The notes beneath the pieces were generated by a model. The model did not search any database and was not told the origin of the DNA. It saw nothing but the letters and a program-made list of their open reading frames with translations. From positions 496,001 through 560,000 of the forward strand of contig JAFCMP010000528.1 of the NCBI GenBank assembly GCA_017506865.1: DNA of 64,000 bases, written 5' to 3'. The stretch comes from Tribonema minus. Lineage: Eukaryota; Sar; Xanthophyceae; Tribonematales; Tribonemataceae. Made by a program: the position numbers and the translations under genes. How positions within the stretch are numbered: the first letter of the stretch is position 1; the number at the start of each line of letters is the position of its first letter. Positions 4,912 through 47,700 of the stretch are shown here, piece by piece.

Positions 4912-7900
4912 ATGGTGAAGCGAGCGGTCAACGGTGCTGCTGGCGATAGTGCTGTTGCACCAGCTTCACGAGCATGCGCCGCTTCTGCGTTAAATGATGC
5001 CCCAACCGGTAAGAGGCACTACTGTTGTGTGTGCTGGTGGATCAAACCGACGCTGAGCGTTTCATTGAGCTTGACGAATGGCTCAGAGCTATACTCATGT
5101 GGTGATGTCGCTGTATTTTGCCTTGCACGACCGTTGCATGCTGGCCTGCTGATGTGCACCAGGGCGAGCGTCTGGGGAATGCATCAACTGTCACTTTTGG
5201 CGCCGTTGCCGCACGCTGCTCACTGCCGGATTCCTGTTGCTGACTCTGCGATGAATTGCATCTGTGTGCTTATCACTCAGCAGCAGCGGGAGATGACGTG
5301 TACACCAGAATCTTCGGCTTCCTTGGAAAAGGGCACTATCTGCAGGTGGCTCTGGTGGCGAAGCATTGGAGGATGATATACGGCTGCATGAAGGGCAAAT
5401 TCACAGCGGTCAGAGAGATGCCCAGGTAAATACAAAGCAGACAGCGTAAAAAGTGCATATATTGTATTATGACAGACACTTCAAGTGTGGCGGCCAGTGT
5501 TGCGTTGTAGAGCGTACTGGACACGGCAAGCGGCGCCAAGTGCGCAAGCGGCGATGTCATGTGCAGCAACAGGCCCTTGGCACACTTGCGCAAATGCTGC
5601 TGGCGGTTGTGCTGCTCACAGCGTAAGCTACAGATACAAAGTGCACCACTGCACTTGAGACAGTACAGGGTCAGTACAGGTGACAGTGCTCGCCAGTCTG
5701 CCGCACGAAGGCACTCATGCTCTTGATCCATGCATTTTGGCTCCATGCATTGACTGGTGCACTGCCCAGCTTCTTGTAGGGACTGTACCGCTGCAGCTTG
5801 TGACAGTACACAGGGACAGTACAGGCGACAGAGCTCAACGGCCTACCGTACAGAGAGCTCATGCCCTCTGCACTCCGGCTCTCTGCGTCTCACGCGGGCT
5901 TCAGACAATGCCATCTTGACCGGTGTGTGGTTGAGACTTGTGCACACTGCGTGAAATGTGTCGCATGATCACCCGCACACGGCGACGTACTTGCGCTGCC
6001 CTTTGTGGTACTACGCGCTACATCCCCATGTGCAGCTCTGCAGTCTGGCTTGAACCTTCTCAGTGGCGCTCTGCCGCTGGCACGGCTGGCGCGCGCAACG
6101 CCGGAATGTCACAACTTCAAGTTTATCATCATCTGCAAGCGTATCCACACACACACCAGTCGCGCCAACCTCAAGTAACACCATGCCTTGCCTCCTCCAC
6201 CGCCACAGATCTCTGCCGCTGCTGCAGTGGGCGTTCGCGAACGGCTGCCCGAAGGACCGCGTCATGGCGTGGGGCGCGCGGTCGGCGTCGCTTGAAGTTC
6301 TGCGCTGGGCGCGCGCCAACGGGTGCCCATGGGACGAGCACACGGCGGCGCGAGCAGCTCTGGGAGGGCGGCTGGACGTTCTGCAGTGGGCGCGGTCGGA
6401 GGGGTGCCCGTGGGACGAGTTCACGTGCAGGTCAGTGGACTGGGTTCAGTGTACTGTGAAGTTACTGCAGTGGGCGAAGGGTGCCCGTGGGACGAGTTCA
6501 CGTGCAGGTCAGTGGACTGTGTACTGAGAATAGGTGGGACGAGTTCACCTGCAGGTCAGTGGACTGGGGTCGGGGTACTGTGAAGTGGTCCCATGTACTG
6601 TGAAGTGGAGGTGGGGAAGGGGTCCGGTCCCAGGGAAAGTCCGTCAGATGGTGTTTCATTTGCATTCCTGAGGAGAGGGGAGCGATGCTGTGGCCGGTGT
6701 TAACGGTGGCGTAGACCGTAGACGGTCCCCCGACGCAAGAACTCATTTGAGGGGTCAGTTTCCAGATTGGGCAGCCCAGCCCTTTGACGCCGCCTCAGGA
6801 AAGCAGCGTCTGCACAATGAGCAACATTACATTGATTGCTCACCAACCCTTTCTCTCGAACGCATGCCCACGCCCACTGCGCGTCACGGCCGTCTCACTA
6901 CCGTGCAAGACACACAAGCTCACACACACACGCACACCGCCGGTCGTGGATCGCCCCCCGCCACCCCGCAGCAAGGCGGCGCAGGGCGGGCACCTCGCAG
7001 TGCTGCGCTGGGTTACGCTACTTACATACCTACCACAGCAAGGCGCACACGCACTGACACCGCCGATCGCGATCGCCTCCCCGCCACCCCCGCAGCAAGG
7101 CGGCGCAGGGCGGGCACCTCGCGGTGCTGCGCTGGGCGCGCGCGCACGGCGCGCCCTGGGACCGCGGCGTCTGCGCCGCGGCAGCGCTCAGCGGTCACAT
7201 CGCAGTGCTCGACTTTGCGCACGCGCACGGCTGCCCGATGGACGCGTACACGTGCTACAACGCGGCGGCGGCGGGGCGCGTCGACGTGCTGGACTGGGCG
7301 CGCTCCCGGAACGTTCCGTGGGGGGCGCCGACGTGCGCCGCGGTGCGTGTCAGCGCTCGCATGCATACCGTCTGCCAGCCGTGAATCAGCATGGTGCATG
7401 CGCGCTCAGTGGCGACACTCAAGTGTTGGGACATTCACTTGTTACTCCTACTCGTAGAAGCACTCGTACACAGGTACTCGTACAGTACAGGCGCGTGGAC
7501 GTGCTGGACTGGGCGCGCTCCCGGAACGTTCCGTGGGGGGCGCCGACGTGCGCCGCGGTGCGTGTCAGGTTTCAGCGCGCGGATACGTACCGCTTGTCAC
7601 ATGCGCGCATCAGCATCAAACATGCAGTGGGTGGGGGGCGCCGACGTGCGCCGCGGTGCGTGCCAGCGCTTAAATATGGAGCAGTTGTCAACCAAGAATT
7701 AGCATCATGCTTGCGTGCACTGTAGCAACGCTTGCTTCGAGCGCAGGTTGCCCAGGCCCCACTCTGCGGCAAGGGGGTGGAGGGGGGGGTTGGTGGACCT
7801 CTGAATTTTTCTGGAAATCACCCACTTGCTTGAGAATTCAGCAGTTGCAAAAAGAGCCTGCTGTGTCGCAGGAACAACCCTGAGATTGATTGTACTCTGT

Positions 7901-9066
7901 TTTGCATGCTGAGCGCCACAGACGTTGTACACCGTGCATAAGCTGCCTCTGCACGCCCTTTGGCAGAATATTGCGCACCCGGCACTCCTTGCACCATCTG
8001 TCAGTGGCGGTCAACCAGTGCTACGCCACCCCAGTGACTTCCTGTCCCCCCTGCCACTTCCTCATACTTGGAAGCTATGTGACATGCATCCATTTAGGCA
8101 ACCGCTTTCTGCCGTGGTCTCGCACGTATGCTGCCACCCTGTTCTGCCTGGCGTCATCACCGCCACACTGTGTGACCTGGACACAGTGACCCTGTCAGTG
8201 GTGGGCAACCACTGCTATGTGACGCCAATGGCTACGGTCCCCCCTGCCAGCTCCTCCATCTTCGAAGTATATGCAATGCATACATTTGAGCACCGCGTGC
8301 TACTGCTGTGTGACCCTGCAGGCGGCGCGCGCGGACCGGCTGGAGGCGCTGCAGTGGGCGCACGCGCACGGGTGCCCGATGGACCGCGACACGTGCAGCG
8401 GCGCGGCGCGCAACGGGCACCTGGCCGTGCTGCGGTGGGCGCGCGAGAACGGCTGCCCCTGGGTGAGCGGCCGTGTGTTGTTGTCGAAGTGATTGTTGTT
8501 GAAGTGCGAAGCTGTTGAGGCGAGCGTGATAGTGAAGTGCGGCAAGGCACGGGGCGCATTTGGCGGCGTCGGCTGCAGCTGCGCTGGAGATCCGCATGTG
8601 ATGTTTGCGCCTCGTGTGCGGTACGCGTGGCGGTGCGGTCGCAAGCGAACACTCTCTGAGTACATTGCGTGTCTGAAGCATGCGCATCTGCATGGAATGG
8701 TGTGAGGGCGGCAACTCGGTGATGCAGCAGATGCGCCTGCACACTCTCACAGTGCAAGCACTCCACGCAGTTGGTTCACTCCGAGCCTCGCTTCCCTTGC
8801 GCACGCCACTGACCCATACTTCAACTCCGGTCTTCACCCTTCACCCCACACACGCTGCATCCCTTGCCCAGGATACGGAGACCACGAGAGCGGCGGCGCA
8901 GGCGGGCCACCTCGATGTGCTCAAGTATGCGCGTGCGAACGGCGCGCCGTGGGACGCCGACGTCTGCGCGAGCGTCGCCGCCACCGCGGAGATACGCGCG
9001 TGGGTGCTGACCAATTCCGCGCCGCGCGGGGGCAAGGCGGTGCGGCAGCGGCTGCGATGGGACTGA
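4912..9066 (+). CDS. F-box-like/ankyrin-like repeat protein, six exons, 348 aa
   Basis: Exons inferred from splice sites and matching phases: 4912-5008, 5281-5425, 6209-6430, 7096-7342, 8322-8462, 8872-9066 (1,047 bp including stop). Exon 2 encodes a short helical block (GDDVYTRIFGFLGKGHYLQV..KHW) that resembles the F-box-like N-terminus seen in stramenopile ankyrin proteins. Exons 3-6 encode about eight degenerate ankyrin-type units with the core 'LxVLxWARxNGCPWD' (for example LEVLRWARANGCPWDE, LAVLRWARAHGAPWDR, LEALQWAHAHGCPMDR, LDVLKYARANGAPWDA). Such repeats bind proteins; the partner is unknown. It ends RQRLRWD then TGA. A TATA-like box lies about 105 bp upstream. Introns 3 and 4 contain repeated copies of exon ends with their splice sites. 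The repeat assignment is firm; the F-box label is tentative. Confidence 0.75.
6431..6575 (+). repeat. Two downstream copies of exon-3 end plus 5' splice site
   Basis: The used exon end reads GGACGAGTTCACGTGCAG followed by GTCAGTGGACTG at 6413-6442. Near-identical copies recur around 6490-6522 and 6537-6567 inside the intron, each with the same GTCAGT donor. Only the first is continuous with the ankyrin-like frame. Confidence 0.8.
6930..7095 (+). repeat. Upstream copy of 3' splice site and start of exon 4
   Basis: Around 6945-7013 there is a copy of the pyrimidine tract, CAG acceptor and first ~45 bp of exon 4 (CAAGGCGGCGCAGGGCGG... through GTGCTGCGCTGGG). The used copy lies at 7060-7137, about 120 bp further on. 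The first copy breaks off before the rest of the exon, so the second is taken as the real acceptor. Confidence 0.75.
7487..7667 (+). repeat. Two downstream copies of exon-4 end plus 5' splice site
   Basis: Exon 4 ends in the stretch encoding RVDVLDWARSRNVPWGAPTCAA followed by GTGCGTGTCAG. A close copy of about 80 bp recurs at 7490-7569, and a shorter one (GGGGGGCGCCGACGTGCGCC followed by GCGGTGCGTG) at 7632-7663. The later copies lack an upstream exon and are read as intron. Confidence 0.8.
7990..8320 (+). repeat. Duplicated ~170-bp block before the exon-5 acceptor
   Basis: The segments at about 8002-8110 and 8192-8300 align: GTCAGTGGCGGTCAACCAG versus GTCAGTGGTGGGCAACCAC, then CCCCCCTGCCA..TCCTC and CATTTAGGCAACCG versus CATTTGAGCACCG. 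The second copy leads directly into the used acceptor (TGACCCTGCAG) of exon 5. Confidence 0.6.
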
Positions 9067-10481
9067 GCACCGGCTGCCCTGAGCAATGAGTTTCTGGATG
9101 GCAGGATGTCTTCGTGGCTCGACTTAGTTCAAGGGCTACGTGCTAGAGTACACGGTTTGCGTGTGATTGACGCAAGCGCACAGCTCGGTTGTAAGGAGAC
9201 CGAGCTCAGTAAATCGCGTGTGGTTGGCGCAAGCGCACGGCCCGGTTGTAAGGAGACCGAGCTCAGTGAGTGGTCTGGCGGCGTTGACACGCGTGCGCGT
9301 GTTGGTGCTGCTGGGGTTCAAGCTGAGGGAGAGCAGGGGGGACAGCAGCGGCGGCGCCTGTGAGGCTGGGTGGCACTTCAGTCCTCGAAGCATTCTGCAC
9401 CCAAGCTGTGAGGCAGTCAGCACAAGTAGTTGCGAGCCACGTACAGCGGCGGTGAGCACAGCAACTTACATGACTCTGCCAGATGATTGACGACTTTTCT
9501 GAGGTGGTGGTGTGTGTCGAAGAGGAGCGTGGTGTGTGTGGGGGGCTTAGACGCTGTCGGAATGCGACCTAGTTCCATGCAGGGACCACTATACATGTAT
9601 CAGTGTTGAGTTCTGAGCTGGGACCCTGAAGGATTCATGATGCCTGTGCTGCCAACCTGCTTCAGATTGCTGAGGAAGATTCTCAGGTCGATTTGGAAAA
9701 ATTTGTTTTCGCATACAATGCAATTTATAAATCAATAAATATGCTCATCCAATGTGCACATTGTCTCTGGAATTGCTTCGACCTGCGGTCGACCTTGCTT
9801 GTGATGCACCAAGATCGTTGAAGAAATCATGTATCACGGAGTCTGGGTGTCCGCTCGTTTGCGACTTGTTCTGCTGAGGATGTTTGGAAAGTCCATTGCT
9901 GGGATGATGCAAAGTCACCATTTCTGTTCATCACGCTATGACAGTCGCTGATTTGCACGACCCGGCTCATCATCACCACGAGCATCCATCGAAGGAGACC
10001 CGCATGTCCTGCACAGTCGCAATGTTACAGTGGCGTCGTATCAAGATGCCGAGTACGGTCTTATGCGCGGAGCACTATGAATGCAGCCGTAACATGCTTT
10101 GAATCAAAATCAGTTTCACAACGGAAAACCGCAAAGGTGACATTCCCCCGCGAAGAGTGGCTCGCTAAATCTCGCCCAGCAGCAGCAGCAGCCCAGCCTG
10201 ACGGATTGTTGCATTGCCAAGAGCAATAACGCCACTCAACACCAGCACCACCTAGCCTTGCGCCACTTGGCAGTGGCAACAGTTGCCACGATTGGCACCA
10301 ACATCACATCGCGGATTCTCGCCAACACTTAGGTGATGGCGCCATGAGGTGGCGTCGTTAGGCCAACTTGTATGCCTGAGACGGACATCGGGGCAAATCC
10401 ACATAGCATCAGCCAGCACGAAGCCCCACAGGCGTTCGGTACAAATACGATGGAGGACTGAAAGGAGCTGGGGACACACTC
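9067..10481. other. Intergenic region between the ankyrin-like and FN3-like genes
   Basis: No convincing exon was seen on either strand. It holds a two-unit tandem repeat (9160-9275), an AT-rich stretch with overlapping AATAAA-like words (9722-9745) that could serve 3'-end formation of the upstream gene, and only short shadow ORFs. A four-codon upstream ORF (ATG GAG GAC TGA, 10450-10461) lies just before the next start codon. Confidence 0.5.
9160..9275 (+). repeat. Two-copy tandem repeat of about 56 bp
   Basis: Units of the form GCGTGTGATTGACGCAAGCG through GAGACCGAGCTCAGTAAAT and GCGTGTGGTTGGCGCAAGCG through GAGACCGAGCTCAGTGAG lie head to tail. They differ at only a few positions. Confidence 0.8.
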
Positions 10482-13400
10482 ATGTTAGCGATAATACCTG
10501 CAGCAGTGCTGGTGGTGTTGGCGAGCTATCAGGTGACATCAGTGGAAGGAGCGAACTGCTGCATAAACTCCACCAGCTCGGAGTCTTTCGAGGAGCCCTG
10601 CACCTGCTTGAGAGGCGATGCCACCGTCATATCTGGGGTAAGCCAGCAATAACCAACAAACCAAAAACAGCGTACACGTACACAACAGCTAAGTACAGCC
10701 GCAGACTGTTTGAGAATGTCTCTTGCACACGCAGGCTCATGCCATGTGTTGGCGGAGTCTTTCCAAATGTTGGTACACCCTTGCAGACTTCAGCAGGTGT
10801 TCGTGGCAGCCATCTCCGTGTGCAAGCATCAACCGGTGTTTTCAAATCACAAGACAACTTGACCGGTACATACCACGCAACGCACGCTTTGATGCTCAGT
10901 GCACGTCCAGCCGCAATCAAGAAAGTGCAAATGCCGTACATCCAAAGTCCCCATTTTGCAAGTTATCAGCAATTGCAGCCCTCAGAGGGATTTTCGGTTG
11001 GCGGAGCTGCGCAGCCTGACATAATTCGTCGGCGCTGTTGATTGCGGTTGATATGGCAGCCTCGCAAAACTTCGCTGGTCTCTCGGCGATCGTGGTCTTT
11101 GCTTTGATCACGCAATGTGTTTGCATTGTGAGTGCACAGTGTCGGCACATTGCTCCTCAGGTTCGCCAACTGTGGCAAACACCAACCGTCACCGTTGTCG
11201 CCAACAACAACGTTAAATTATGCAGACAGAGCCCAGCGCACAGCTCTCGGCTGCTCAGAACATTTGAACAATAGATAATGCGTCATGCCAATACGCCGCC
11301 TGTCTGTTCTGAGCGCATGTGCTCGAACTTCGGCTTGCCAGGCTGCGCTCACGAGCCTCTGGTTCCTTTGAGATGTGCTGCGCGGTGATGCACTTTCAGC
11401 ATTGCCGCAACGGAAGCTTGTTTCAGCCCAGAAAAACTGTCTCAAGAAGCATTAAATGTGAGGTGCGTCAACTGCCACGCCAACTCGCACCTGGCACTTG
11501 CAGCAACGTTGAGGTTGATCAGTTGATCTGCAGGCGCTGACATGTGGTGGGCCAGCCGCCAGCCGTGTGTTGGCATACGCGTGCAGATCGCATGTTGGCA
11601 TTGGGTAGGTATGTAGTGGCAAGACAACATCGCGCAGACCAATGGCTGCTGCACAGTGCGTAGACCAAAAATGCGAGGCGGCGTGCTGCAGACTGTGGAA
11701 AACTGGCGCTGAAGTGATTATGACAGGGCCGACATAATGACGTTCAGGCTAAAATGACGCAATCCACGCGGCCTTGCTCAGCATGCCAGGTTACATTCCT
11801 CTTTCGCCTGGAACACGATTGCCATTGTGAAGCGCTCTCATTCAAGGCAAAGTGCTAGAAAGCCAAATCATTCGCGAGTGTGAGGACTGAGTTGCGGTGT
11901 GGGCAAGACATGAAAGGCAGCGGTGCATATCAAGGACGCCGATAGTAGCTCAGCAAACCTACATGTACACGCTGCAGTACAGGCAAGGGCCACTTCATTG
12001 GCCACGTGTGATGGTCGACCTCACGCTCAGGTTGCGTCACCGAGCTGTAATGGCCGCGCGCGGCGGTCATACGCGACGTCAAGATGCCCAAACAGTAGTC
12101 GTACGTTAAAGTACCTCTTGAAGCATCACACAGACAGCACCAATGATGCCACGCCAGCGCGGCTGCTTACGCCTCAAGGGATCACCGGTATAATTATTGA
12201 TCTTTGCGGAATGCGTTTAATGGAAGCCGCTCGTTGGTTTAGGGCTAGGTGTTGGACCATGATCAAGTGAACCCCAGTGCCAACCCCCCATCTCATCAGC
12301 AATAAAAAAATTACTTTGCTTCTCACCGCCATTGACAGCCATGGGCGCAGTGCAAGGCCTACGGGCGAACGGGGGGCCTTCCATTAATGTGTATGATTCT
12401 GTCCATCCTCCTCCACTATGAGACTGTACATATGTGTCGTTCACTGGCTGCAGATTCACCTCAACCGCCTGCGTCCACATTGCCGCGGGTGTCGTTCACT
12501 GGCTGCAAGTTCACCTCAACTGCCTGCTCCCGCACTGCCTCAGGAGGGCACCGGCGACCTGAGCCGGCTGTACCACTGGGTCCTAGATGACCCCAACGTG
12601 GACCTCATCAACCGCAAGCAGCGCGGCATGCTCACGTTCGAGGTGCAGCCGTGCTCGGGGTCTGCCCACCTGTTCCTCAAGTGAGCGCCATAATGCCCCC
12701 CTTCATATATACCCTTTGGCGCGTATGGCAGTTTAATGTGCCGTTTGCAACCTTGATGGTTACGGCAGTTACACTCGCTCAGGGTCCGCCCACCTGTTCC
12801 TCAAGTGAGCCCCAGAATGCCCTTCATACTTCGAAGTACATACACGTTGGAGCATATGGACGTTGCATGCTCATCGCCGTTTGCGACCTTGACGGTTACC
12901 TTGACGGTTACGGCAGTTACACTCGCTCGGGGTCCGCCCACCTGTTCCCCAAGTGAGCGCCAGCATGCCCTTCATACATACCCTTTGATCATATGGCAGT
13001 TACATGCTCAGTGCCATTTGCAACTTTGACGGTTACGGGGTGTGCCCTACCTGTTCCTCAAGTGAGCGCCAGCATGCCCTTCATACTATGAAGTTCATAG
13101 AAGTACATACCTTTCGGAGCATATGGCAGTTACATGCTCATTGCCGTTTGCACGCTTGACGGTCACGGCAGTTACACTTGCCGGCAGACAGACCACAATA
13201 CGATTCACTTCTAGCAGCGCACGACTGGCGTCGGTCTGCATACCCATTGCCCTGACGGAATGTACGTGCATGGCACCGCAACGCCTATGTAGCCTGCATT
13301 CTCCGGCCATCATCGATGGATTGCAGCACATACAATCTGAGCGTCACACAGCACACATGCCGCAGCTGCTGCCTGCCTGATCGAGACCATTGGCTCATGT

Positions 13401-16400
13401 AGTTCATTTATCGAAGGAAGTCTGCAGAATATGGCGGCGAGGCGGTCCCTCTCTGTCTGACTGTAGAATCTTTGGCAGAGGATTGCCTTTGTGTTATACT
13501 TCCATGTGTCCAGGGCGGCTCAGCCATGAAGCAGTTTCCGTTACAAGTGTCGTGACTGCTTCTTTTCTGGCACATGTATTTGGTGCCATCGACTGTTCCT
13601 TTCTGCGGCGCGTAGCTGGTGCAGACGATACCAAGCTCTCAATGCTAACACCAATGAAATGTTGCATGCACTGTGGTGCGCACACACCAGCGAATCTGCT
13701 GTCCTCACACTGAAGTTGTTTGTTGCCGAACACGGCCCTTTACACCATGCCAACCCCCGCCATCTTCGCCATATCATCTGCACCTTCTGCGATGTAGCGC
13801 TGTACACCGCACTGGTACAGACTTTGGGCAGTCCTAGACACCACACGCACCTCGTGCAACGTCAAGTTGCACACTGCACCGATCCACAATATCGCCGCGT
13901 GCATGCACTGCCGCCGATCGATACAGACGTGGGCGCCTCCACATCACATGTACTCTGAACTACACCTTGTGCACAATGTCAGGTTGTACACTGCATAAAT
14001 CACAGTATCGCCGCATATATGTACTGCCGCCAATTGCCGCAGGAGCGCGAGCCCCAGCAGCTGGCCATACCTACCTACCTACAACTCGACGCTCGACCTG
14101 GACGTCAACAGCATCACGCTGGACGCGCGCTACGCGGAGCACGTGGCGCTCGTCAACGCGACGCCCGGGTCCACGTACCAGGTGCGCTGAGCGTTGCTGC
14201 TGCGCAAGTGTCGGCCATGCCATACGATCTTCGAGGTACCTATACATGCAATCTGTCAACGTGACGCCCGGCTCGACGTACCAGGTGCGCTGAGCACTGC
14301 TGCTGGCTCTCACGCATTGAAAATATGGCAGCAGATGAATTGCCTGCAATTTCTAGAATTGCATCTTTTGAATGGAAACGAATCAAAAGATCGTAGAGCT
14401 CTAGAATCAAACCCTGTAGGTATAACTCTGCCTCCTATACCATATCAAACATGCATACCATGCGACCACGCTGGCCCTCACGCATGTAGGTATGATCCGT
14501 GACTCTGTATGCCCTACCATACCACGCCGTACCATACATGCAAACCGCGCGTCAACGCGATGCCCGGCTTGACGTACCAGGTGCGCTGAGCGCTGCTGCT
14601 GGCTCTCACGCAAGTAGGTATGACTCTGTCTGCCATACCATATGATGCCATACCATACATTCACTATCATGCGTCAACGGGACACGCGGATGGACGTACC
14701 AGGTGCGCTGAGCACTGCTGTTGGTGACCACGCATGTAGGTCGTGTGCCTATTTGCCATACTTTGCCAAATCATACATACATACCATGCGTCAACGCGAC
14801 CGTACCAGGTGCGCGGAGCACTGCTGCTGGCGACCCCACATGTGCCTAGGTATGATCAATCACTTTGTCTGCCATGCCTTGTGGTGATGCGACGCCTGGG
14901 TGGGCGTAACGGGCGCGCTGAGCGCTTGTGCTGGAGACCCCGCATGTAGGTATCGTTTGTGTGTTTGTGCTGCACAATGTCCAGCATGCGTCAAGGAGCA
15001 TGATGTTCACGCATCGCGATTTGGCCGCGCTGCGTGCCGCGCACACGCGCCAAACACCCAGCATCACTCCCGCCTCAGCTGCTGCGCCGGTTGCGTAACC
15101 TTTGACAATGCCGCTGATGACGTGCAGTGCTCACGCTGCTCGAAGGCCACGGCGATGCCTCAAGCGCGCCCCTCTCGCGCCGTGTTGCCGCCGGCAACAA
15201 TGTCGAAGAGCTGCTTAGGGTTAGAATTAGCCCCCTGGCCTCACCGCAAAACAACCACTACGAGTCGCACCTGGACGGGCTGCGCCGCCTCCGCCTCCGC
15301 CGCCACAGCCGCTGTCGCCTCCGCCAATCATCTTGTCCCCAACGCTTGCTGAGCATTAGCTCTGCCCACTCACCTCCAACCACTTCCATGCACACACACG
15401 CTCCGCTCACCCGCACCCTACCGTCACCCTTAATCACCCGCTGTCTGCCGCATCTCAACGGACCGCGCCGCCGCCGCCGCCACCGCCTCCGCCGCCGCCG
15501 CCGCCGCTGCCGCCGCCGCCGCCGCTGCCGCCGCCGCCGCCGCAGATGACCATGTACACGAGCCTCTCGCCGAAGCCCGTGGCGCCGCCCGACGGTGGCA
15601 GCGCGCTCGTCACGAGCGTCAACGCTGGCGGCGACGGCGTCGTCGTCGCCTTCACCGCGGGCGCCACCGCCGGCGGCGGCGCCGCCGAGTACCAGCTCGT
15701 CTACGCGCCCATGCCGCGCTGGGACGGCGGCAGCGGCAGCAGCAGTGGTGGGAATGAGACGGCGGCGGCGCCGGCGCCGGCGGGCTGCGCGTTCTCGCCG
15801 AACGACACGCTCGCGGACGCGGGGCGCGACAACCCCAACTGCATCTTCTGGACGCCGTGCGGCGCGCAGGTATGTGTGTATCTATATTCGTGCACGAGAA
15901 GGCACCTACTTACCCCCGCTGCGTAGTATATGCATGTGTGTGTGTGCGTGCGTGTACCTACGTACCCCCTCTGAGTGATGTTTGATGCCAACTGCATTTT
16001 CTGGACGCCATGCGGCGCGCACGCATGTATGTATGTATGTGTGTGTGTATGAGAGAGAGGGTGGCTGCCTACCTATTCTAAGTGATGTTTGATGCCAACT
16101 GCATTTTCTGGACGCCATGCGGCGCGCACGCATGTATGTATGTATGTGTGTGTGTATGAAAGGGTGGCTGCCTACCTATTCTGAGCGATGTTTGATGTCG
16201 ATTGCATCTTCTGGACGCCGTGCGGCGCGCAGGTAGGTATGTGCGCGCGTGTGTGTGTGTGTGCGTGTGTGTGTGTGTGTGTGTGTATGTGTGTGCACGC
16301 AAAGGTACCTGCCTACCTAATCTGAGAGATGTTTGATGCCAACTGCGTCTGCTGGACGCCGTGCGGGGCGCAGGTACGTAGGTATGTATGAATGTGCGCG

Positions 16401-19400
16401 TGTGTGCACGATAAGGTACCTGCCTACCCCCTGTGAGTGGTTTTATGAATGGCGCCGACTGCATCTTCTGGATGCCGTGCGGCGCGCAGGTACATGTGTC
16501 CTTCAGAGGTATGCATGTAGAAGCGTGTGTGTGCACAAGAAGGTACCTGCCTACCCCATCCTCTAAGTGATGTTTGAGTGGCGCCAATTGCATGTTCGGG
16601 ATGCCATGCAGCGCGCAGGTATGTACGTACGCGCGTGCGTGCGAATGGTGAATGAGTCACCAGACACCCCTAATGCTAGGTTTGCCCAGACATGAACATG
16701 ATGTTGCAACACGGGTTTGCCCAGACATGAACATGATGTTGCAACACGCAGCTTGTCCCTCACAACAGCAGACCGAACAAATGAGCTCTTAACACCTCTG
16801 CCACACAGGGATGAATCGAAATTGATGTTTCAATCTCCGCAAGAGTTCCCGCTCCTCACTTGAGGGCCATCTTGCAGTACAATTCGCGCTCCGTTCCCCC
16901 CCCCCCCCTCTTGAAGGCCAACTTGCAGCACAATTCGCGCTCCGCTGACCGCCCCCCCCCCTTCCCCCCCTAATCCCCCCCCCCCCCCCCCCCCCAACGC
17001 TCAGGCAGCCGCGACGTACGCCAGCGACTGGGTAACGGTCGCAGCGGGTCAGCGCGGCACCCTTGAAGCGCGCAACCTCGACTCGGGCACCGTCTACATG
17101 CTGAACGTCGTCATGCGCGCACCTGTGAGCGGGCGGCGCGCGGCTGCGGGCGCGACGCAGGCGCAGGCCGTGTACACCGCGACAGCGCTCAACTTCACCA
17201 AGCAGACTTACGAGGTGAGCTCAGCTTCACCATGCAGATGTACAATATGAGCAGCGGCAGCGTGTAATGCTGGTGGATGCCTCGTTTAAAGTGGTGCACG
17301 CCCTGCTGTGTACATTGCGACAGCGCTCAACTTCACCGAGCAGACGTACAAGATGAGCAGCGGCAGCAGAGCGTAACGCTGGTGGACGCGTTGTTCAAAG
17401 TGGTGTTGACTTTCACCATTTGCTTTCAGAAGCATTCACCTACCTGGAATCTTGTAAAACGCGCAATTGCTTCATACTGCGGGCATGCCCTGCCGTGTAC
17501 ACCGCGACTGCGCTCAGCTTCACCAAGCGGACTTGCGAGATGAGCAGCTGCGGCAGCGCGTAACGCTGGTGGGTGCCGCGTTCAAAGTGGTGTTTTCTGC
17601 AGGCGTGCCCTGCTGTGTACACACATAATGGCAGCGCTCAGCTTTACTGAGCCGCGGCAGTGGTAGGCATGTATATATATAAGCATATGTAAGACTTTTT
17701 GTAGACTAGTACAGGTAACACTTTAAAGTCTACAGTAGGCGATGAATACTTCTCTTGTGTAGGCAGTATGGCGAATGGGCTTCTGCAGCAGAGTCCTGCA
17801 GTCATGTGATGGGTTGCATGGCAGTTGTGATTGTGCGCTAAGGAGGGTTAGGGTTAGCTTGACGTGGCGCATGACTACGTCACTGCCCCCCGCCAGCACC
17901 GGTGTCAGATGCAGCACCTATTCATGATGGTGATCAAGTTCATGATCAAACACGCGCATCAGCCGCGCGCTTGTACTGCAGCTCAATGAGCTGCTGCTAC
18001 AAGCAGATCGATGTCAGGAACCGGGCGATACGGGTAACCGTCGCCATCAAACCCTACCTACAGGCTTTACACACCCGTTTTCACATTGGCGCAGCTGCGC
18101 AGCGAAATGCCATGAACCCCACACACAGGCTATACGAACGCATTTTCTTCACTCTAAATGCTTTTGTCCATCTGCGCATACGAACGCATTTTCTTCACTC
18201 TAAGTGCTTTTGTCGATCTGCGCAACAACCCTATTCTTTTTTGGCGCAGCTGCACAGCAAATCGCCATCAACCCCTACACACACAGGCTATACAATCTCA
18301 CTTGTTTCACGCTAAGTGCCGTTGTCCCATCCGCGCAGGACTGCGTCGTCGACCCGAACTGCAAGTCCCAGGCGCACAGCGACGAGGTCATCAAGCTGGT
18401 GGTGGGGTGCCTGACCATCATCTTTGCCACGCTGCTCATCACCTTCAAGTGCGTGCACCTCGACCTTAAGCGCCGCATGCGCGCCGCCGCGCAGCGCTCC
18501 GCGGGCTTCGGCGCCAGCAGAAGCAAGGTATGTATCGTATGCACGTGTCTCGCGTAAACCCGCACTGCCACATTCCGAAGCGGCGGATGCACCAGTGTAC
18601 GCACTTCAGAGCATATGGTGCGTGAGTTTGGCTCTTGTTGTAATGGCGACTGCGCCACGCGGCGTGCGATACGTCACGCTGCCTTAGGGTTAGGATTAGG
18701 GTGAGGACGTAGGGTTAGGGTTAGGGCTATGCGAGACTTAGAATTAGAACATGCCGCCTTCACGCTCGCATGCCCTCTGTGCCACGCGTGCAGCGCCTCA
18801 TGATGTTACACGTGTTCTGTTCTTACTGGTCGATTCTTCAACATTCCGATAACAGCAAGCGTCTCAGGCATTGCTTCTCCCTGCCCTGCAGCATGCCTGC
18901 CTCTAGTCAGTTGCACATTGACGCGACTACGGACCGCGCCTGATTTTGGTGAAGGCCGTACGTGTCACAATCTCTGGAGCACCTGTGGAAGCGCAATGCA
19001 CTCGAAGCAGCCCGCCTTCGCGGTCCGGTGTGCTCATGTTCAGATTCTAATGTTCAAGTTCGTTTGCGCTGCGATTTCGCACTGACCACCGCATCACGAT
19101 GCATGCTGCGTACCGTTGGAGCCCTGATTGTGCCCCCCCCTTGCCGTTCCCCACCCCCCGCCGTTCTAACCCGCCCCCCACTGCCACCCTCATCGCTCGC
19201 AGGCGGGGGCACCAAAGCGGCGCATGGTACCGCCCATGGCAAACGTCGTCACCGCCGGCAGCAAGCCGAGCAGCAGATCGGTCAGCCCAGAGGCGTCGCC
19301 GCGGCGGCCGCCAAACAGGGTGAGCACTGACCCGCTTCCTAACCCCATATCAGCTCAACCCTGCTGTCGGTCCCGATTGCGAGTACATGTACTCACTCAG

Positions 19401-22400
19401 GAGGATTGTCACTTGAGGTGTTGGTAACCATTCATCGCAAGTGTCGCTCATGCACTCACGCGGTCGTTGGAGCTGTCCCTTTGGCTGCCGTGGTGAACGA
19501 AGACTTGGTTGTGCTACTGCTGCGACTTAGGGTTAGGGCTAGGGTTACTGCTGCACAGGTGTCGCTCTCCACATGTGCCCGCTGCGTTTTTTAATTGCCA
19601 CAACTCGCAGGAGTCTGGGTCCAAGACAAAAGTCCGGTGGAATACACGCGTGCGTCAACGGTACAGGGCAATGCAAAGGCGGACGAGCAGGAGGGTGCAC
19701 ACTCTCTGTCCAAGTATAGAAGTATGACATTCTGCCCTTGCATGATGATTCTGTTGTGCTCATCACCTTTTTCAGACAAGAGTCAGCTGGAGGCATTGCG
19801 CGCCTGAAAAGCCTTGCCGAGGGCGAACCAGTTCAGGCTGAACGATATGAATGACTGCGCTACGTGAAATTTTGACCTTTTCTTCGCACAACAGCGCGCC
19901 TGGACTCTTTTGTCCTCATGAAGACTGAGCCAATGTTTCGGGCGGCAGCCCGGTACACGACCGCGTCACCTCAGAGCAGGCGGCAGCGGCGCAGCACGCG
20001 GACCAGTACTGGCCAACCCATGCGAACACGGCTCTGTGCTCCTGCCTCCTCCCATGCGACCGCCGACTCTGACTTGTTCTCACGTAACGCATGTCAATGT
20101 CACAGGACGAGTCGAGGGCGGATCAGTACGGCACCGCGTCGCCGTCACCGACTTCAGAGCAGGCAGTGGCGGCGCCGCTGCGCGGCAGGGGGGATGCGCA
20201 GGAGAGCACGCCGCCGCCAGGGCTGGGGCGCATGTCATCCGCGGTGCGTCGCCGCCGCCAGTTGTGCCTTAAAGTTGGCAAAAAACTTATACTTCGAAGT
20301 ATGCGTCATTCTGGTCACCCTGGGGGTATTTGGTAATTCTGTATATCATTTTGATTGGTAGCCATCCAGACATTGTAGTGCCTTGCGCTTTGAATCCTAA
20401 AGATCATTGGTTTGCTTGGAACCAGGCCGGAGGCGGCCGCTGCCACAGGTGCCGCATGCGCGCACCGGTGTGCATCATGAGCAGTGACGTGTTGTCTGTG
20501 CGTACATTTTTATGGCTCTGACGGCGCTGCCGCATGAGGGCGCGTACCTCTTGTATGATGCACGCATTCGTGGCGCACGATCGCTTGCGAAGCGCGCACA
20601 CATACTTCAAGTTGAAGTACAAGCACACGGGCGCGTGCCTCGTGACGCATTTGTGGAGCACGACTGCTTGCGAAGCGCGCGCACATACTTCAGCTTGAGG
20701 TACACACGCATGGATCGTGAAGACGTGCTTGTGTCCATGGCGCAGCAAGCGTCCAAGCGCCCGCTGATGTTCATCTTCTTTTACGGCACAGCACCGCTCC
20801 AAGCGCATCTCGCCGGCGGCAGACGACAATGAGGCTACCGCCCTCGAGAGCATACCAAAGTACATGGAAGTGCGAGCCTAACTAGATACCTCAACTTGTT
20901 TCTCCACGGCGCAGTACCGCTCCAAGCGCATCTCGCCGGCGGCAGACGACGAAGAAGCCGCCGCCCTCAAGCGCATTCATAAAAGCGCGAGCCTAACCAT
21001 GTACTGCTATTTTCTTGATTGTTTTCGCGATGCAGCACCGTTCCAAGCGCATCTCGCCAGCGGCAGACGACGAGGAGGCCGCCGCCGCTGCTGCCGCGCG
21101 CCAGACGGCGGCGGCGAATGCGTGGGGCGACGCACGCGGCGCTCCCGTGGACGTTTCGGATGACGAAACCGACAGGGACGACGCGTCAAACAGGACGCCC
21201 GAAAGGTGAATGAGTAGAAAAAATTGTTTTTCTTTCTTGTTGAAACCGGCAGGGTCGATGCGGCTGAGAAATGTGGTTGGTTATTTTGAATGACAAAATA
21301 GACACAGATGACGCGCCAGACAGGACGCCCGAAAGGTGAATCAGGAGAATGCCTCGCCTTGTTTTGGATGTTGAAACTGACAGGGCAGATGCGGCTGAGG
21401 CATGTGAATGGTTGGTGTGAATGACGAAACCGACAGTGATGATGTGTCAGGGACGACGCCCGAAAGGTGAATGAGCAAATATTCCACCCCTTGTGATGTT
21501 AAAACCGACAGGGTTAGTGATGTCTACTGGACATGTGAAACTTTTTTGGTTTCCAATGACGAAACCGAAAGAATGACACGTCAGAGAGGACGCAATACAG
21601 GTGGGTTCTAGATATGCTTCTTTTTCCGATGTGAAAACCGACGGGGGTGGTGCCTCTGAAAAATACAAGTGTTCATTTCTGATGACACTGACAGTTATGA
21701 TGCGTTTGAGCATGCTGTTACTGTTTCGGACGTCTGCTCAGTGACGGAACCAACTGGGCTTCTGCGTCTGAAGGGACGCGTGGCACGTTGGAGTGCATTG
21801 TGGTTGTCGCCGACCTGTATGACGCGTCTGAGAGGACCGGCAGACGCATCTGAAGTGGTGGGGGTGCCTGAAGCTTGCAGTGGCATGGCGCGCACACGTG
21901 AGGTCGCAGCACGTGCAGGCTGCAGTGTGATTTGGCAAAAGCGTCGCACAGGTAGGCTGCAGGACAGAATTGGCAAGTCACATTCAACAAGACCGAAGCC
22001 TCCTGTGGCGAGCGCGCAGCAACCCTCAGCAACCGCCGCTGCATTAAGCTCCCAAAAAGCACCGAACCGACTGCATGCCATGTCAAACCTCAGCGCAGCA
22101 GGCCCTGCAGTGCCGCTGCAGCGAAGGCGCACGCGCTGGTCACTTCACCCTCACCTTCACCCTACCCCTAGTCTTAACCTTGACCCTAAACTTCAACAGA
22201 AGCCGAGGCATCATGGTCCCAGAGGCGACCGACCGCATGTCAAACCTCAGCGCAGCGGGGCCTGCAGTGCCGCCGCAATAAAGGCACATGCGCTGGTCAC
22301 CTGACCCTAATCTGAACACTAACCCGAACTTACCCTAATATCAACCCTGACCCTAACCCTAACCTTCCTCACATCCCTACCCCTAACCCTAACTTTCATC

Positions 22401-25924: not shown

Positions 25925-26056
25925 TAAAAAAGGCCGCTGCTGGGCTGGTAGGTAGGGGAATCTTGGTTTTCGTCGTACGTATGGACTTGTATTTATAAAG
26001 GCCCAAGGGAGGCCGGGTTGCCTATGCAATCGAAAAGCTTGCGTCAACGCAGCAGC

Positions 26057-34732: not shown

Positions 34733-34818
34733 CTTGAGGATCGTGATCACCAACTGCCTGCAGTGCTGAGGCAAGAGGGGCACAAGTGAAGCGCAGCAGC
34801 AGTGCCAACTGCGCAGAC

Positions 34819-40685: not shown

Positions 40686-41735
40686 GGCAGCAGAGGCGGC
40701 GGAGGCTGTGTGTAAGCGCTGCAGGCTGCGCTCGCCACTGCAGCAGCCACGCCACAGCACTCTCACGAGGCGACTGCTGCCGAGTCAACACATCAGCTTG
40801 CATCCCAATCAGTGTTTAGAACAAAGGGAGGGGGACTGCAGGATGCGGGCTGCTGCAGCGGCAGCAGCGTGCGTCTTTGTGTGTGTGCCCATTTGCTACA
40901 GACGCTGCGGCGGCGGTGGTGAGGTGCGGCAGCGGCGGCGGCAGCGGCGGCGGCTCTGTCGAACAGCAACGCAGCGGCAGCGCTGGCAGCCACGTCAATG
41001 ACTCAGCCTCACTTTGCGAGCAACACAGCAGCCCTCATCAGGGTTTGGCGGAATGCCGCCGATGCTTGTATTGCACTGGCAGCGATTGCCGCAGACCTCT
41101 TCGCTGCAGGTGCTGCCGTCGCCGCTGCTGCGGATTTGGTGACCCATTTCGTTTGGTTCTTGCAAGGCCGGCATTACAGCACTAGCATCCCGTGGGGCAC
41201 ACACATATGTAATGGTTTACTGTGTGGCGTATTGCGGTGATGCGCATGGGGGATTTCTTGTGGGTGGGTGGGTTGGGGGGGGGGGGGGGGGGGGAGGGCA
41301 CGGGGAGTTTGGGGTGGGAGTGAGTGGGGGGATAAAACGCGCTGGGCCAACAATTTTACGTACCGTCAAAGCATTGAGTGCGTGTTCTGCGTCTTGCATT
41401 GGCTGTCCTGGGAACTGCTGATGTGAACTTGAGACTTGATGCAAAGCTGGGGCGCCTGAAGAAACGGCAAGTTGCACACACGCACAGGTTGCCGCAGTGC
41501 TCTATAGAACCTAGACACCATCAGTCACCACTACAACAGAAAGCAAGATTTGTGCACCATGTGGTACACCACGGCAGCACTCGCTGGCTTCTCCGCACTT
41601 TGTTGAGCATGGACGTGCAAGGCGCCGTTAAGGCCCGGTTCCTGCAAAGCTCAAGTTCAATAGCAGGAGTGTCACCATGGAGCGGAGCCCACGTCAAGTT
41701 GCACCTCAAGGTTCTGGCATAGAGGTGCAGCTATC
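40686..41735. other. Intergenic region between the two plastid-protein genes
   Basis: It is the 3' flank of the SAP gene and 5' flank of the methyltransferase gene. It contains GCGGCG-rich runs (40850-40985) that give Ala/Arg shadow ORFs, and an uninterrupted run of about 20 G at 41275-41294. No exon with splice sites was recognised and no clear TATA box was found. Confidence 0.45.
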
Positions 41736-44700
41736 ATGCGTCTAGGCCTGCTGTTGCAGCTTGCAGGTGCCTGCGAGCTGCTTTTCTTGTCCAGCAGCGA
41801 TGCTTTCGGAGTCAGATTGGCGAGCCGAGGGCGGCTGACAACGCTTACAGCAGCACTGACAAAGCCGCAGCAAGAGGAGCCTCCAGCGAGCAATGTGAAG
41901 CAGCAGCTGCTGCACATTTTTGGAGAGCCGCCCACAGACGACGACGAGTACGACAAGGCAAGCCAGACATCCTGACTGCTGCTCACAGTGCTTGAGGTTT
42001 TCCAAAGAGACACTGGCTTCCTGCTCGAATTCAACTTCATGGATATGTTGTACATGGTCATTTACGTCGCTGACTGCTGCTACCTCAAAGGCATCTGGTA
42101 TGCTGCCATTGTACATGCCTGCTTTGAAAGAGGGACGTAATCTGTCAGGTTTCCAAGAGTTACAGCACTAAAAAAAAGCTGCAGCACGCATCTTGCCTGT
42201 AGTTTACTGTGGTGAACTGATGCCCTGGTGCCAGTGGAGCTTTTCTGCCATGTTCTATTACACCTGTGCTGCTGCAGGGATTTTTACCAAATTGTTGTTC
42301 TGTATGCAGCTGGCCGCAGCGCAGAGTCCAATCATTTGCACTGTGTGTGCCGCAGCGATGATTGCACTACAGTAGCTGCGCTCATGTCATGCGTCCATCA
42401 GCTCATCAAGTAGCACTATGCCACCTGCACTCACTTCGTGCGTTAATCAGCTCGTCAATAGCCTGCGAGTAGGGGTAGCTCTGCATCTGCATCCGACATG
42501 AATTGATACGCAACAAAATCAGGACGTCCGCAAGTGTGTGCACGAGTGGTGCCACGCGCGGCATTGCTGGAAGGGCCTTCCATGATGGCACTGCTCTTAT
42601 GATGCCACACAACTCATCTGATGTCGCAGTTGCGCTGTGAACATAAGCTTGACCGCACGTGAGCGCAGGAAATGTGTCGCACCAACACATGTGAGGACTG
42701 TTGGCTTTGTTTGGGTTCGTTAGAAAGTGGCTGCTCCCGACTGTTGCTGGTACCACCCTGTCAGACACACTGCTGCACTGGCACATTCCAATTTTCGTTA
42801 CACCTCATAACGCAGCATGAGAGCTGACTCTAGGCCTTTGCCTTCATGCCCTGCAGGTCCTGGCTTCACCAGGAGCAAAAATGCCAGTGCGGCAGGTCAC
42901 CCGCATCTTCGGACGCTTTGCGACCCTGAGATACGTCGCAGACAAGGAAGGCAACAGGCACGTGGGGACGCCTTGATACAGGACACAAACGCGCCTGCTT
43001 GCCAATGCTTGCAAGTGTGACCGTCAGCACGGGCTTCACAGTTGTGCCCAGGAATGGCCAGAAGTGACTGGTTGTGTAACTTTTGCGGAAGCGCCTTGCT
43101 GAGAGCCTCGGCGGTGGAAGGTCAGATCGGATCATGAAGTGTTCCAGCCACGAGTTTTTCCCTGCATAGAAGCCTGGTCATCAACGAGCACAGCTGCATT
43201 CATGTCGGTACTGTGCTCAAAGGCAACGCGGCAGCTGGGTTTTTTCTTTTGATTCCTGTCTGTGTGCACTGCGGCACACGCAGCGCCACCGGCTGTACAC
43301 TTATCAGCACGTACCTGCTTTGGTGACTTGAGCTCATGATTCTTTGCGACTGTGCCTGCAGGTGGCACTGCATCGGGCCATACATCGATTTTGTGGGAAG
43401 CCAGAAAGCACCGTGGCAGCTGTCAGGCGAAGCGCGCCTCAAGGAAGGCGAGTCCAAGGACGAAAATGACCGCTGCTTGTTGCTGCATGGCTGATGCTTG
43501 CAGGGAAGGTGGTTTAGGGGCCATGATTAGGAAACATCGCTGTTAATGTCGTCAGAGGTGCAGCTGCAGCGGTTACTGGTGGCAGTACCCGATCTTTATC
43601 TGGTGCTGCTGCTTTCATGTGTGAACAGCGGCTAGTGCGGTGTCGCCCTCCGAAAGCGCGCGCAACGGGTCAGCGCTGCTAGGAATGACGATCGCTGCGT
43701 CGCGTGCTGCTGCTGCTGCTGCTGCTTTGTCATCGTCTTGTGTTCCCTGCGGAATCGCCTAGTTGGCATTCTATCTTACGTGTCATGCTGAAGTTACACA
43801 AAGGGCTGCATGCATGGTGACTAGGTTAAGGTTATATTGCCGTGAAGCTCCCAACTACCTCGAAGTATGTACACAGCACCCATTTAGCACGCTGATAGTG
43901 CCCCCAATACCCATCATAGCACTGAGTCCATCTTTGTGGTGCACGCTCGCCTGTGTGTGGTCTGCGCCAGGCTGCTAGCACAGGATCCTGCATCTCTTGC
44001 GACGGTGGTGGTCGCCGCATGGCTCAGTGGTATCATGTCGCTCCATCATGCTGCATGCTTTATGCATTGTTCAGCGTTGCATGAACAGCCAGCAGAGTCA
44101 CACAAGTACTTGCCTTCACCATGGCACGACATGCAGCACTTCATGTGCTCTGAGCAAACTTCAAAGCTGATGCGCAGGGGTGCACAAACCATCGACGCGA
44201 ACCGCCCCCAACCTCAGCTCCATGTGAATTTAGTAACTCAATTTACAATTGCGTTACTGCTGCAGGCCTGTTCATGCTGCCCGTGACGAGCTTCCTCTAT
44301 GAGCGAGGATGGCGGCAGCAGTTCAACAAATTCGGGTGTCCCGGCATTGAAACGGTGCGTCACCACTTGAACTATGTGGCTTGGATGTAAGTTTGTGGGG
44401 GTGCTATCTTTGAGTCATGCTATTGCTTGGGCAAGCTGCGCAGTCTGACACGGTGGCAGTGAGAAACTCCTGGCATCACAGAATACTTACCAGACTCACT
44501 GAAAGCCCTGTTCAAATGCGTTTCTTCTTATGTAGGTGTGTGGGTATCTGCTTGAGCATGGCAAACTGACTTTGATTCACCAGACATTATTGCTACTTTG
44601 CGGTGCTGGTTGTGCCGGCATAGGATATCATAATCTTCTGAATCATTTCCATGAAAATACGCTGGGCGTCCAGGCATTACGATAGCGTGCCAGTGTATCA

Positions 44701-47700
44701 CGAGAAGCTGGTGGCAAGACACTGAGCGACGGCCTGCATGTTCAGTTGCTTGCAGAAACCCTTGCCCCAGCCCAGACCCACCCGTCCTCCCCCTTCCTGT
44801 GACATTTTGTCTCAAATCCGCGTCGGTTGCTCAAACTCTGAAGTCTTGTGTCGTGGCTCCACTGCAGGAGTTCGATGAAGTGACCCAATTCTTTGAGCCG
44901 GTACAGGGCCCCGACGCTGTGGTTGCGGACCTTTCCTGCGGATCCGGCCTTATGACTCGCCGCCTCGTCTTCAGCAACAGGTACTCCCTTTGATGCTGCA
45001 GTGCAGCCCAGCGAACATCGTTTGTTGAACTGCTGAGAGAAGCTTTGTCCCCTCCCCTGTGAATGTGTGGCAGTTGTGGGTCATGACCTGCTCACAGGAC
45101 GTCTCATCGCCACGGCGGGAGCCTGCATGATAGCGTGCTGTGTACACATGGATACTCGCTGCAGCAAACAACGGGCACCTGTAATGCACAGGAGCTGTAC
45201 ATCGGCGCCAACGTCCCATCCATTGGTCTACAATGTAGAACAGTTATTCGCGGCAGCCGTCAGTGGTAGTACCTATGCACCATGGCTGCAGCGGCACAGC
45301 AAGTGATGGTCAGTCCTGGCACTCCGCAGTTGTCGCCTACCTGTTCATTCGCAGAGCTGGTTGCTCACCAGTGACGCCCGAAAGTGATGCCGGCAATGTT
45401 TGCAAGAATTCTCAGCACAGCCGAACATGCCCACTTTGTGTTTGCCTGCTTGACGGCTCGATTATTGCCGAGTCGCCGGCTGCAGCTGGCGGCATGCGTC
45501 AACTGGTCACATACCCAGAGCACACGGCAGTACTCAAACTCGTTCGGTGCCTCCACTTCACCCGCTGTGCTGACAAGTCCATCGCTGCCGGCGCTCTCAG
45601 GTACGGCCGCATCATCGGCGGCGACCTGTCGGCAGCTATGCTCAGGGAAGCTGCGCGACGGCTCAGCAGGTGCAGGCGCCCCGGCAGCGCCACCACCGTT
45701 GACTGGGTCCGCCTGGACGTCAGCCGCCTGCCGATCGCGACGGAGTCCGTGGATGCGGTTCACGCGGGCGCGGCGCTGCACTGCTGGGTCGACCTGGAGG
45801 CATCGCTCAGTGAGGTGACACTTATCAAGCACTTATTATGCAACAATAAATTGTACCTTTTACTCGCATTACGTCTTAAATTTATTCACAAGTATACGAA
45901 GTCTCTCTACACACGGGTGCGTCGAAGCACAAGGGTTGGTGCTTTACGCTCACTGCATGTTGTCTGCAAGGGATTCACTGCACTGCGTGCCTACATGTGA
46001 TTACGACTTTCTGTGATGAGCCTCCTGGTTGTTGTAGGCAGCACAATGTACCACCATTTCAAGCTGGCAACTGTGCAACTCCAGCAATGCATGATGATTT
46101 GGGGCCTGGTGATTGCTCACAGGCTTGTACCCCTCTCCATTGCACGCCTACGTACTACGGTGAAATCAGTGTACATCATGATATGGCCAATGTAAAGGCA
46201 ACACAGTGTCTTTTGTTCCGCCAGGATGGTGTGTTGGCTCACACACTCTTCTCGGTGCAACGCCTGTGAGGCAGAGTGATGGGCAGGTAGAGACGCGACA
46301 GTGACAGTGTTCAATACTTTGCGGCTTTCACTTTGGCGGAGCTGGCAATCAAAGACACAGTTGCACGGCGAACGCGGCGTCTGTGCGCTCAATAATACCG
46401 GTGTGCAACCAACTTGTACTGTGTCGAGATGGCTCGTTGTCAAGTAACGGTGCTTGTGCAGGTTCATCGTTAGTGTGCTCATCCTCTGCGTGTGCGTGCG
46501 ACGGCGTCCATATGTGTATAGGAGCCTAAAGGCTGGTCGCCATTTGTCAGGCAAGCGCTGTGTGCTATCCCTGTCCTTTGAGCCTCCTGCCGCCCAGATG
46601 CACGTGCATACCTTGCAGGCACTGCCAAACCAACATGGCAAAGTGTGAGACGCTGATGCACAGGGGCTGGCGGCTTTCATGCCATCCACCACAACCTGCA
46701 CAATATCCTCCTTTGAAGTGCAGCAGAAGGCATCCGCCGGCTAGCATGATCACAGACGGGTCTTGTGCTCAAGCCGACGCCTCACAACGCAGCGCGTTTG
46801 ATGCATTGCATGATACTTGCCTGGTGTGCGCACAGGTGTACAGGACATTGAAGCCAGGCGGCCGCTTCTACGCGAGCACGTTTCTGCTGTCGGACCTCAT
46901 GAGCGGCGTGGCCTCCAGCTTCCGGTGCTTCACGCGCGACGAGCTTGCATACCTGCTGGAGCAAGCAGGGTGAGCGCTGCTGCCGACACCTTCACAATCA
47001 TCTGGAACACTGTTGTCATTCATGCTGACTCTGATGCGCGCAGGGTTTTACGCATTGCCGCCGCTCTCAAACCGCCTTGTAAGGCTGTATTGAGCTGGGG
47101 AGGCATGTATCCCAAACTCCTACATGCCATGAGGGCTGCTCTTGCATGCTGCAGTGCCTGCAACAAACAGCCCAGCGACGCTTTCAGCCTCGAAGCTTAC
47201 GCATTTCATGTGCAGTGTACAGTTTTCAGGCATGAATGTGCGAGTGCGCTCAAGGAGCGCACTACGCCTCAATAGAGCCGCAACACGACAGTGCATGTCG
47301 TGCTGTGCAACCTGCCAAGCTCAGCGCTCAGATGCACCTCAATCACCTTGCGCCATGTGCGCGTCTGCAGACTCATCTCGTTCACCTTGCGCCCGTTCAC
47401 CTTGCGCCATGTGCGCGTCTGCAGATTCAAGAGCGTGCATGTTGTGTTGTGCAACCTGACGTGCTCAGCGCTCACATGAATCTCGTGTGCACGCCTGCGC
47501 CATGCCCGCGTCTGCAGATTCGAGAGCGTGGACGTGCAGACATACGGCAAGGCGTGCGTCATCGCCAAGTGCATCAAGTCCGCGACGCCGCCGCCGCCAG
47601 AGCCGACGCCCAGCGTCGAAAACGCCATGGCAGATGACACCGATGCCGGCGACTCCGCCGATGCCACGGGCGCCGGACACACTGCAGGCGTCGAAACTGC

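Follow-up and report, generated by a model that had tools for sequence, protein, structure and literature searches.

Introns in a stretch of the Tribonema minus genome, probably enlarged by repeated tandem duplication across exon borders

Several introns of Tribonema minus carry, in tandem, decayed copies of the edges of their neighbouring exons together with the splice sites. They lie in a stretch of 64,000 nucleotides (hereafter the window) of contig JAFCMP010000528.1, positions 496,001 to 560,000 of the forward strand, and positions below are counted from its first base. Tandem arrays across exon borders were found at 11 junctions (eight donors and three acceptors) of ten introns in three genes, with 2-7 units each, namely introns A3 (at both ends) and A4 of gene A, B2, B3, B4, B5, B8, B9 and B10 of gene B, and C4 of gene C. 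The surplus copies account for 18-56% of each of these introns and for 3286 of their 9885 bp, figures computed with one B9 site six bases out of register. The original prediction, which had listed at least ten introns of three genes as enlarged in this way, is thus upheld in number and in kind. We consider that the arrays probably arose by recurrent local tandem duplication of units of about 70-215 bp, which splicing tolerates, the surplus becoming intron and decaying.

The host genes, six in all (A-F, with 32 introns and 64 junctions), were modelled by a custom codon and splice-site hidden Markov model (HMM) followed by extensive hand editing, from sequence only; echo copies were left out as exons partly by hand choice and not only as a computed outcome. 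At each junction, the adjoining 40 bp of exon served as a query against the intron at that junction, the reverse complement of that intron and equal-length stretches of other introns (20-43 such stretches each at the ten scoring junctions). Ten of the 64 junctions score 45-80 against their own intron, where their control maxima are 18-26; over all 64 junctions the highest control is 30 (range 18-30) and the highest reverse-complement score is 29. The excesses at three other junctions are at noise level (C1 donor, 20 vs. 19; F1 donor, 25 vs. 20; B11 acceptor, 22 vs. 21). The eleventh junction, the C4 acceptor, was found once the query windows took in intron bases. That such copies should stand out against shuffled introns was also confirmed, since in six rounds of dinucleotide shuffling of all introns no tandem hit that passed the low-complexity filter reached a score of 30.

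Direct repeats within introns exceed chance, and the units of the arrays run head-to-tail, as seen with Tandem Repeats Finder (TRF) and self-BLAST. The extra copies, or echoes, number 27 at the 11 junctions, a count that leaves out a third B10 unit (22691-22747) and the B9 unit 21549-21593, and the exon portions of the aligned copies span 8-68 bp. The modelled donors at these arrays follow positions 6430, 7342, 12680, 14181, 15869, 17214, 21205 and 22592, and the modelled acceptors precede 7096, 21036 and 47518. In genes D, E and F, no junction-straddling array was found at the threshold used, the F1 donor giving a weak extra hit (score 30, 21 bp).

The copy that adjoins the body of the exon is the one in frame, as had been proposed. 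Each of the 27 echo splice sites, if used singly, leads to a frameshift or a stop. Two of the frameshifted products are still long, their frame staying open, namely those from donor 6508 (355 residues) and acceptor 6972 (390 residues), compared with 348 residues for the primary chain of gene A; used jointly, these two sites give an in-frame addition of 201 nt, yet a stop is met at codon 209 of 416. In gene A the choice of site agrees with the protein itself, which has a period of 27 residues, with 91 of 189 positions matching at lag 27 and no more than 19 at the other lags from 20 to 34, and the ankyrin register is held when A3 and A4 are spliced at the sites nearest the exons, as modelled. 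For gene B the choice is based on the open chain of 841 residues alone. It has been reported that in phase-2 introns the donor consensus turns the first complete codon into a stop (PMC2809761), and use of the echo donors of B2, B9 and B10 leads to a stop at just this place.

There is no indication that selection removes the echo donors. GT is kept in 20 of 25, the same 9-mer as in the real donor is present in 16 of 25, and the 9-mers hold 16 substitutions in 225 positions. Where the echo matches the real donor in all nine bases, the choice of the first donor is not explained by the donor 9-mer alone. The reason may be position, whether through exon definition or through the order of transcription. 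The decoy sites are presumably silent, and the original suggestion that they could feed alternative splicing is a conjecture.

We propose the following process. A duplicated unit would cross the splice junction, and the exon-adjacent site (among donors the first, among acceptors the last) would still define the exon. The messenger RNA and the protein would remain unchanged, while the surplus exon edge with its splice site would turn into intron. Further duplication would extend the array, and the surplus copies would decay in a nearly neutral manner, with selection holding the exon copy. Slippage or staggered-break repair could supply the duplications, and exon definition may account for their being tolerated.

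The decay of the copies is largely consistent with this process. Substitutions at codon positions 1, 2 and 3 amount to 0.110, 0.108 and 0.190 between exon and echo and to 0.215, 0.201 and 0.276 between echoes, with one B9 site six bases out of register in these and in the exon- and intron-part divergences below, and with copies within one array being non-independent, so that all such comparisons are soft. Echo-echo divergence is about twice the exon-echo value at positions 1 and 2, as if the exon copy were constrained and the echoes drifted in a roughly neutral way. The extent of divergence differs between introns, being 0-3% from the exon copy in A3 and A4 and about 10-39% in B2, B3, B4, B5, B8, B9 and B10. 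The repeats are in register on the splice junctions, and the exon breakpoint is nearly common to the units of B2 (28, 28 and 25 bp), B5 (48 and 48 bp), B10 (43 and 43 bp) and B4 (35 bp in five units and 30 bp in one), as would be expected from a single first duplication followed by expansion.

Progressive decay of the copies, another part of the original prediction, is found on average and not strictly. Divergence grows with distance from the exon copy over nine arrays (permutation p 0.004, gaps ignored; p 0.0003 and 0.002 with odd units dropped), and in seven of the nine the outermost echo has moved further from the exon copy than the first one has. In B5 the order is reversed, and in A4 the two are tied. 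In addition, over the stretch compared, no difference separates the B4 units 16023 and 16130, which have a dead donor in common; therefore, units duplicate within arrays too.

Several observations weigh against recurrent local duplication followed by simple neutral decay. The echo exon parts diverge less than the echo intron parts (0.230 vs. 0.358, the latter over 40 intron bases that extend partly beyond the homologous unit) and contain fewer gap bases (10 vs. 60), and simple neutrality predicts neither. Echo-echo differences are slightly higher at third positions, and in B8 the differences fall 3/0/8 on codon positions 1/2/3, a strong third-position bias. Breakpoints differ among units in A3 (59 and 21 bp), A4 (68 and 25 bp), B3 (35, 30, 31, 8 and 24 bp) and B9 (52, 46 and 46 bp). 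The excess of arrays at borders and their higher copy number, described below, indicate that something may favour borders. Finally, the gene models are predictions from sequence, and that of gene B found no support from homology.

Could the copies be real exons instead, generated by tandem exon duplication and serving as cassette or mutually exclusive exons? B8 is the array that speaks for it: both upstream copies run without a gap over 51 bp of the exon, with the codon-position bias just mentioned, and the first copy (20792-20869) can be read as a 78-nt in-frame cassette exon that would extend the protein to 867 residues, an exon that the HMM had chosen, as it had a 36-nt one in B2 (12917-12952). 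The B8 copies may thus be true exons. In the arrays other than B8, the echoes are partial exon edges, five of the 25 echo donors lack GT, and the drift between echoes is just mildly biased to third positions. Whole-exon tandem duplication does not account for ten of the 11 arrays, which copy the exon edge only. On the whole, it is unlikely that some or all of the copies are exons, with B8 as the array in doubt.

A second alternative is a polar process directed at the border, in which new copies made preferentially at the exon edge push the older ones into the intron like a conveyor. Its trigger might be R-loops, or breaks linked to transcription, at the 5' splice site. The placement of arrays bears on it. 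We scored 21 intronic tandem arrays, 18 from self-BLAST and three from TRF (16679-16748, 16859-16962 and 59645-59685), leaving out low-complexity arrays, units below 20 bp, exon-internal arrays and intergenic arrays. With one B9 site six bases out of register, 11 of the 21 straddle a junction vs. 4.4-5.0 expected by blind placement (P 0.001-0.004), and these have more copies than the intron-internal ones (P 0.0002). The increase of divergence with distance from the exon and the prevalence of donor over acceptor arrays (8:3, one-sided p 0.11) point the same way. The exon share of the unit has a mean of 0.32 and is skewed low relative to a uniform distribution (Kolmogorov-Smirnov p 0.005).

However, the donor excess is not significant, and the identical adjacent units of B4 indicate duplication within an array. 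The distance gradient fits a conveyor and, equally, faster decay at the outer end of any tandem array, as distal ends may behave in this way. The border enrichment is moderate, and detection bias through the conserved exon copy could explain part of it; outside the known arrays, weaker ones (score 30-44) were not found except for a CCG-rich stretch in B3. Moreover, ten of the 21 arrays do not straddle a junction, some of them in the same introns, and two of these ten end 2 and 9 bases from an acceptor exon. Therefore, duplication occurs off borders too, and a border-directed process is doubtful. We likewise give little credence to its stronger form, in which exon edges would act as repeated templates and polar duplication would emit the exon end and 5' splice site into the intron, leaving a layered record of growth with the oldest copy farthest away and a reservoir of intact donors and AG/GT sites.

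The off-border arrays also count against echoing as a general mode of intron growth, which had been suggested and is not sustained, as does the distribution among genes: echoes are present in nine of the 17 introns of genes A and B vs. one of the 15 in C, D, E and F (Fisher p 0.007). The arrays are real and orderly, and concentrated in one 20-kb stretch. Within genes A and B, introns with echoes exceed those without in length (one-sided P 0.018); over all genes the length difference is not significant (P 0.11).

It is very improbable that the introns were born when an exon segment carrying AGGT was duplicated in tandem. The units do carry splice-site motifs, and intron birth of this type is documented (PMC3443670), but the model needs the start of the next exon to match the start of the intron, and the echoes sit inside introns. 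When acceptor queries (20 bp of intron and 80 bp of exon) were aligned to each of the 32 introns at a score of at least 30, hits were obtained only at A3, B8, C4, the CCG run of B3 and, weakly, in B7, and no hit fell at an intron start. Introners were also rejected, as the high exon-end scores occur in the own intron only, the other introns of the window giving 30 or less. An assembly artefact or low-complexity chance has next to no probability: TRF reports GT-rich stretches in some arrays, but most copies are about 10-39% off the exon copy, shuffling gave no hit, and the exon parts are complex coding sequence.

Table 1. Arrays and host genes in the window (a slash marks the splice junction).
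Feature	Position	Strand	Description
A3 donor array	6410..6586	+	exon 3 end and CAG/GTCAGT; two echoes, GT at 6508 and 6555
A3 acceptor array	6923..7136	+	intron end and 41 bp of exon 4; one upstream copy, acceptor end 6971; 56/58 identical
A4 donor array	7275..7670	+	68 bp of exon 4 and donor; echo GT at 7558 (78/79 identical) and 7656 (39/40)
B2 donor array	12653..13181	+	28 bp exon end and CAA/GTGAGC; echoes at 12805, 12953, 13062
B3 donor array	14147..14951	+	35 bp exon end and CAG/GTGCGC; echoes at 14285, 14581, 14703, 14809, 14913 (GT lost at 14913)
B4 donor array	15835..16629	+	35 bp exon end and CAG/GTATGT; six echoes; 16023 and 16130 without GT
B5 donor array	17167..17652	+	48 bp exon end; two echoes, each with AT in place of the donor GT
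B7 acceptor side, weak	19940..20001	+	possibly an older exon 8 echo; score 36, 50/70 identical
B8 acceptor array	20783..21086	+	two copies of intron end and exon 9 start ahead of the modelled exon
B9 donor array	21154..21652	+	46-52 bp exon end and AAG/GTGAAT; three echoes, GT at 21336, 21467, 21601
B10 donor array	22550..22756	+	43 bp exon end and GCA/GTGAGT; two echoes; period about 70
C4 acceptor array	47291..47530	+	mainly intron end and 13 bp of last exon; about three units
Gene A, ankyrin-repeat protein	4912..9066	+	open chain of 348 aa; Pfam Ank_4 8.7e-14; 27-aa period across junctions
Gene A exons (6)	4912-5008, 5281-5425, 6209-6430, 7096-7342, 8322-8462, 8872-9066	+	
Gene B, membrane-protein-like by eye	10482..25088	+	13 exons; open chain of 841 aa
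Gene C, methyltransferase	44266..47908	+	at least five exons (modelled without 5' part); Pfam Methyltransf_11 1e-18
Gene E, hand model	41735-43493		open frame if both introns are GC-AG; no Pfam match

The gene models behind Table 1 were obtained as follows. Pieces of the same six-gene set that the HMM then modelled had served to train it, and an initial version, which over-split introns, was replaced by a second one. The introns have a eukaryotic look: they start with GT in 30 of 32 cases and with GC in two, and all 32 end in AG, the AG being imposed by the models and the GC pair set by hand. In gene A, exons 4912-5008 and 5281-5425 were set instead of 5388-5425, the last exon was lengthened to 9066, and the HMM exons 7474-7557, 7747-7788 and 9184-9363 were removed by hand. 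In gene B, the hand removals comprised the echo-copy exons 12917-12952 and 20792-20869, the zero-length HMM exons at 14285, 14581, 14809, 16233 and 16374, then 16507-16508, 21324-21335, 24158-24190 and the final two HMM exons, and acceptors were shifted from 15360 to 15546 and from 16917 to 17005. The 3' end of gene D was edited by hand, as were the 5' end, the 46858 acceptor and 46225-46228 of gene C; gene F was mostly re-joined by hand and gene E was wholly hand-built.

As for the identity of these genes, the first 624 residues of gene B have no Pfam match, and the best PDB match of its 368-residue N-terminal query (E 0.27) is not significant. For gene C, the best bacterial relative aligns to query residues 48-200, spanning three exon joins, and its matches in the genome contig collection comprise 46 loci, all under bacterial names. 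Gene D has a SAP domain (Pfam, 1.3e-10) and gene F a beta-helix/PMP region (Pfam, 8.9e-10). No match in viral contigs was found for gene A, the first 385 residues of B, the methyltransferase part of C, the last exon of F or the reverse transcriptase frame described next, and a scan of the window with Rfam at the gathering threshold and with ARAGORN for tRNAs found nothing.

Other elements of the window were also noted. A minus-strand open frame at 2-2686 contains a reverse transcriptase domain (RVT_1 1.2e-10) and is adjoined by another open frame on the same strand (2687-4708) with no Pfam match. A single open frame of 2975 codons from stop to stop occupies 26057-34984 (minus strand) and may, by its position and look, be a second retroelement. 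Intron 3 of gene F holds an element resembling a miniature inverted-repeat transposable element (59136-59592) with perfect 28-nt terminal inverted repeats. Short TTAGGG- or CCCTAA-like runs lie within introns at 18684-18726 and 22304-22400 (TRF and by eye) and at 39302-39330 and 59459-59490 (by eye). A 195-bp tandem duplication of 93% identity (55583-55977) is located in a gene F intron about 1 kb off the nearest exon, and past gene F there is a perfect 52-bp direct repeat (62179-62230 and 62898-62949) with a spacing of 719 bp.

The lengthening of introns, and with it the difference in intron size between genomes, is hard to observe, since the copies decay. Here, the exon copy under selection could serve as a fixed reference, so that each array provides a clock and an order of events. 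Up to five successive GT donors are found per intron (five identical 9-mers in B3), of which apparently only the first is used, and such serial donors constitute a natural splicing test bearing on exon definition.

Related cases have been reported in other organisms. The gain of introns of the AGGT type is alike in that local tandem duplication with splice-site sequence leaves the protein unchanged (PMC3443670); in the present case, however, existing introns lengthen, with several units per intron, and no new intron lies between the copies. In potato RdRp, a duplication over the intron-exon border has been described (PMC4974935, in part), whose unit likewise includes the intron end and exon start, with the splice signals inherited. 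There, a single duplication made a new intron, whereas here multi-copy arrays are present, mainly at donors, with no new intron seen. The introns of the fission yeast genes SPOG_01682 and SOCG_00815 consist of 24-nt repeats common to exons (PMC3629103, in part), similarly in several tandem units running on into the exon, but the unit is short and the case concerns intron gain in two orthologs. For Daphnia, neo-introns are said to lengthen as staggered breaks are repaired again and again, with direct repeats left behind (PMC4202315, in part), which resembles the present case in that repeated duplication serves as a passive route of lengthening. It differs in being ascribed to staggered breaks in young introns, and the accessible part of that paper describes no exon-edge arrays of several units that keep intact donors. 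The suggestion that growth by repeated duplication had not been described does not stand, since the accessible parts of the Daphnia and potato papers already report such lengthening and border duplication, respectively. A literature search over titles and the beginnings of abstracts, mostly without subscription papers, yielded no account that we recognised of multi-copy exon-edge arrays. The general process is known, while long arrays of many copies, in which decoy donors stay intact, look like a new form of it, and the density of exon-edge copying in this window looks unusual for a process that is already partly known.

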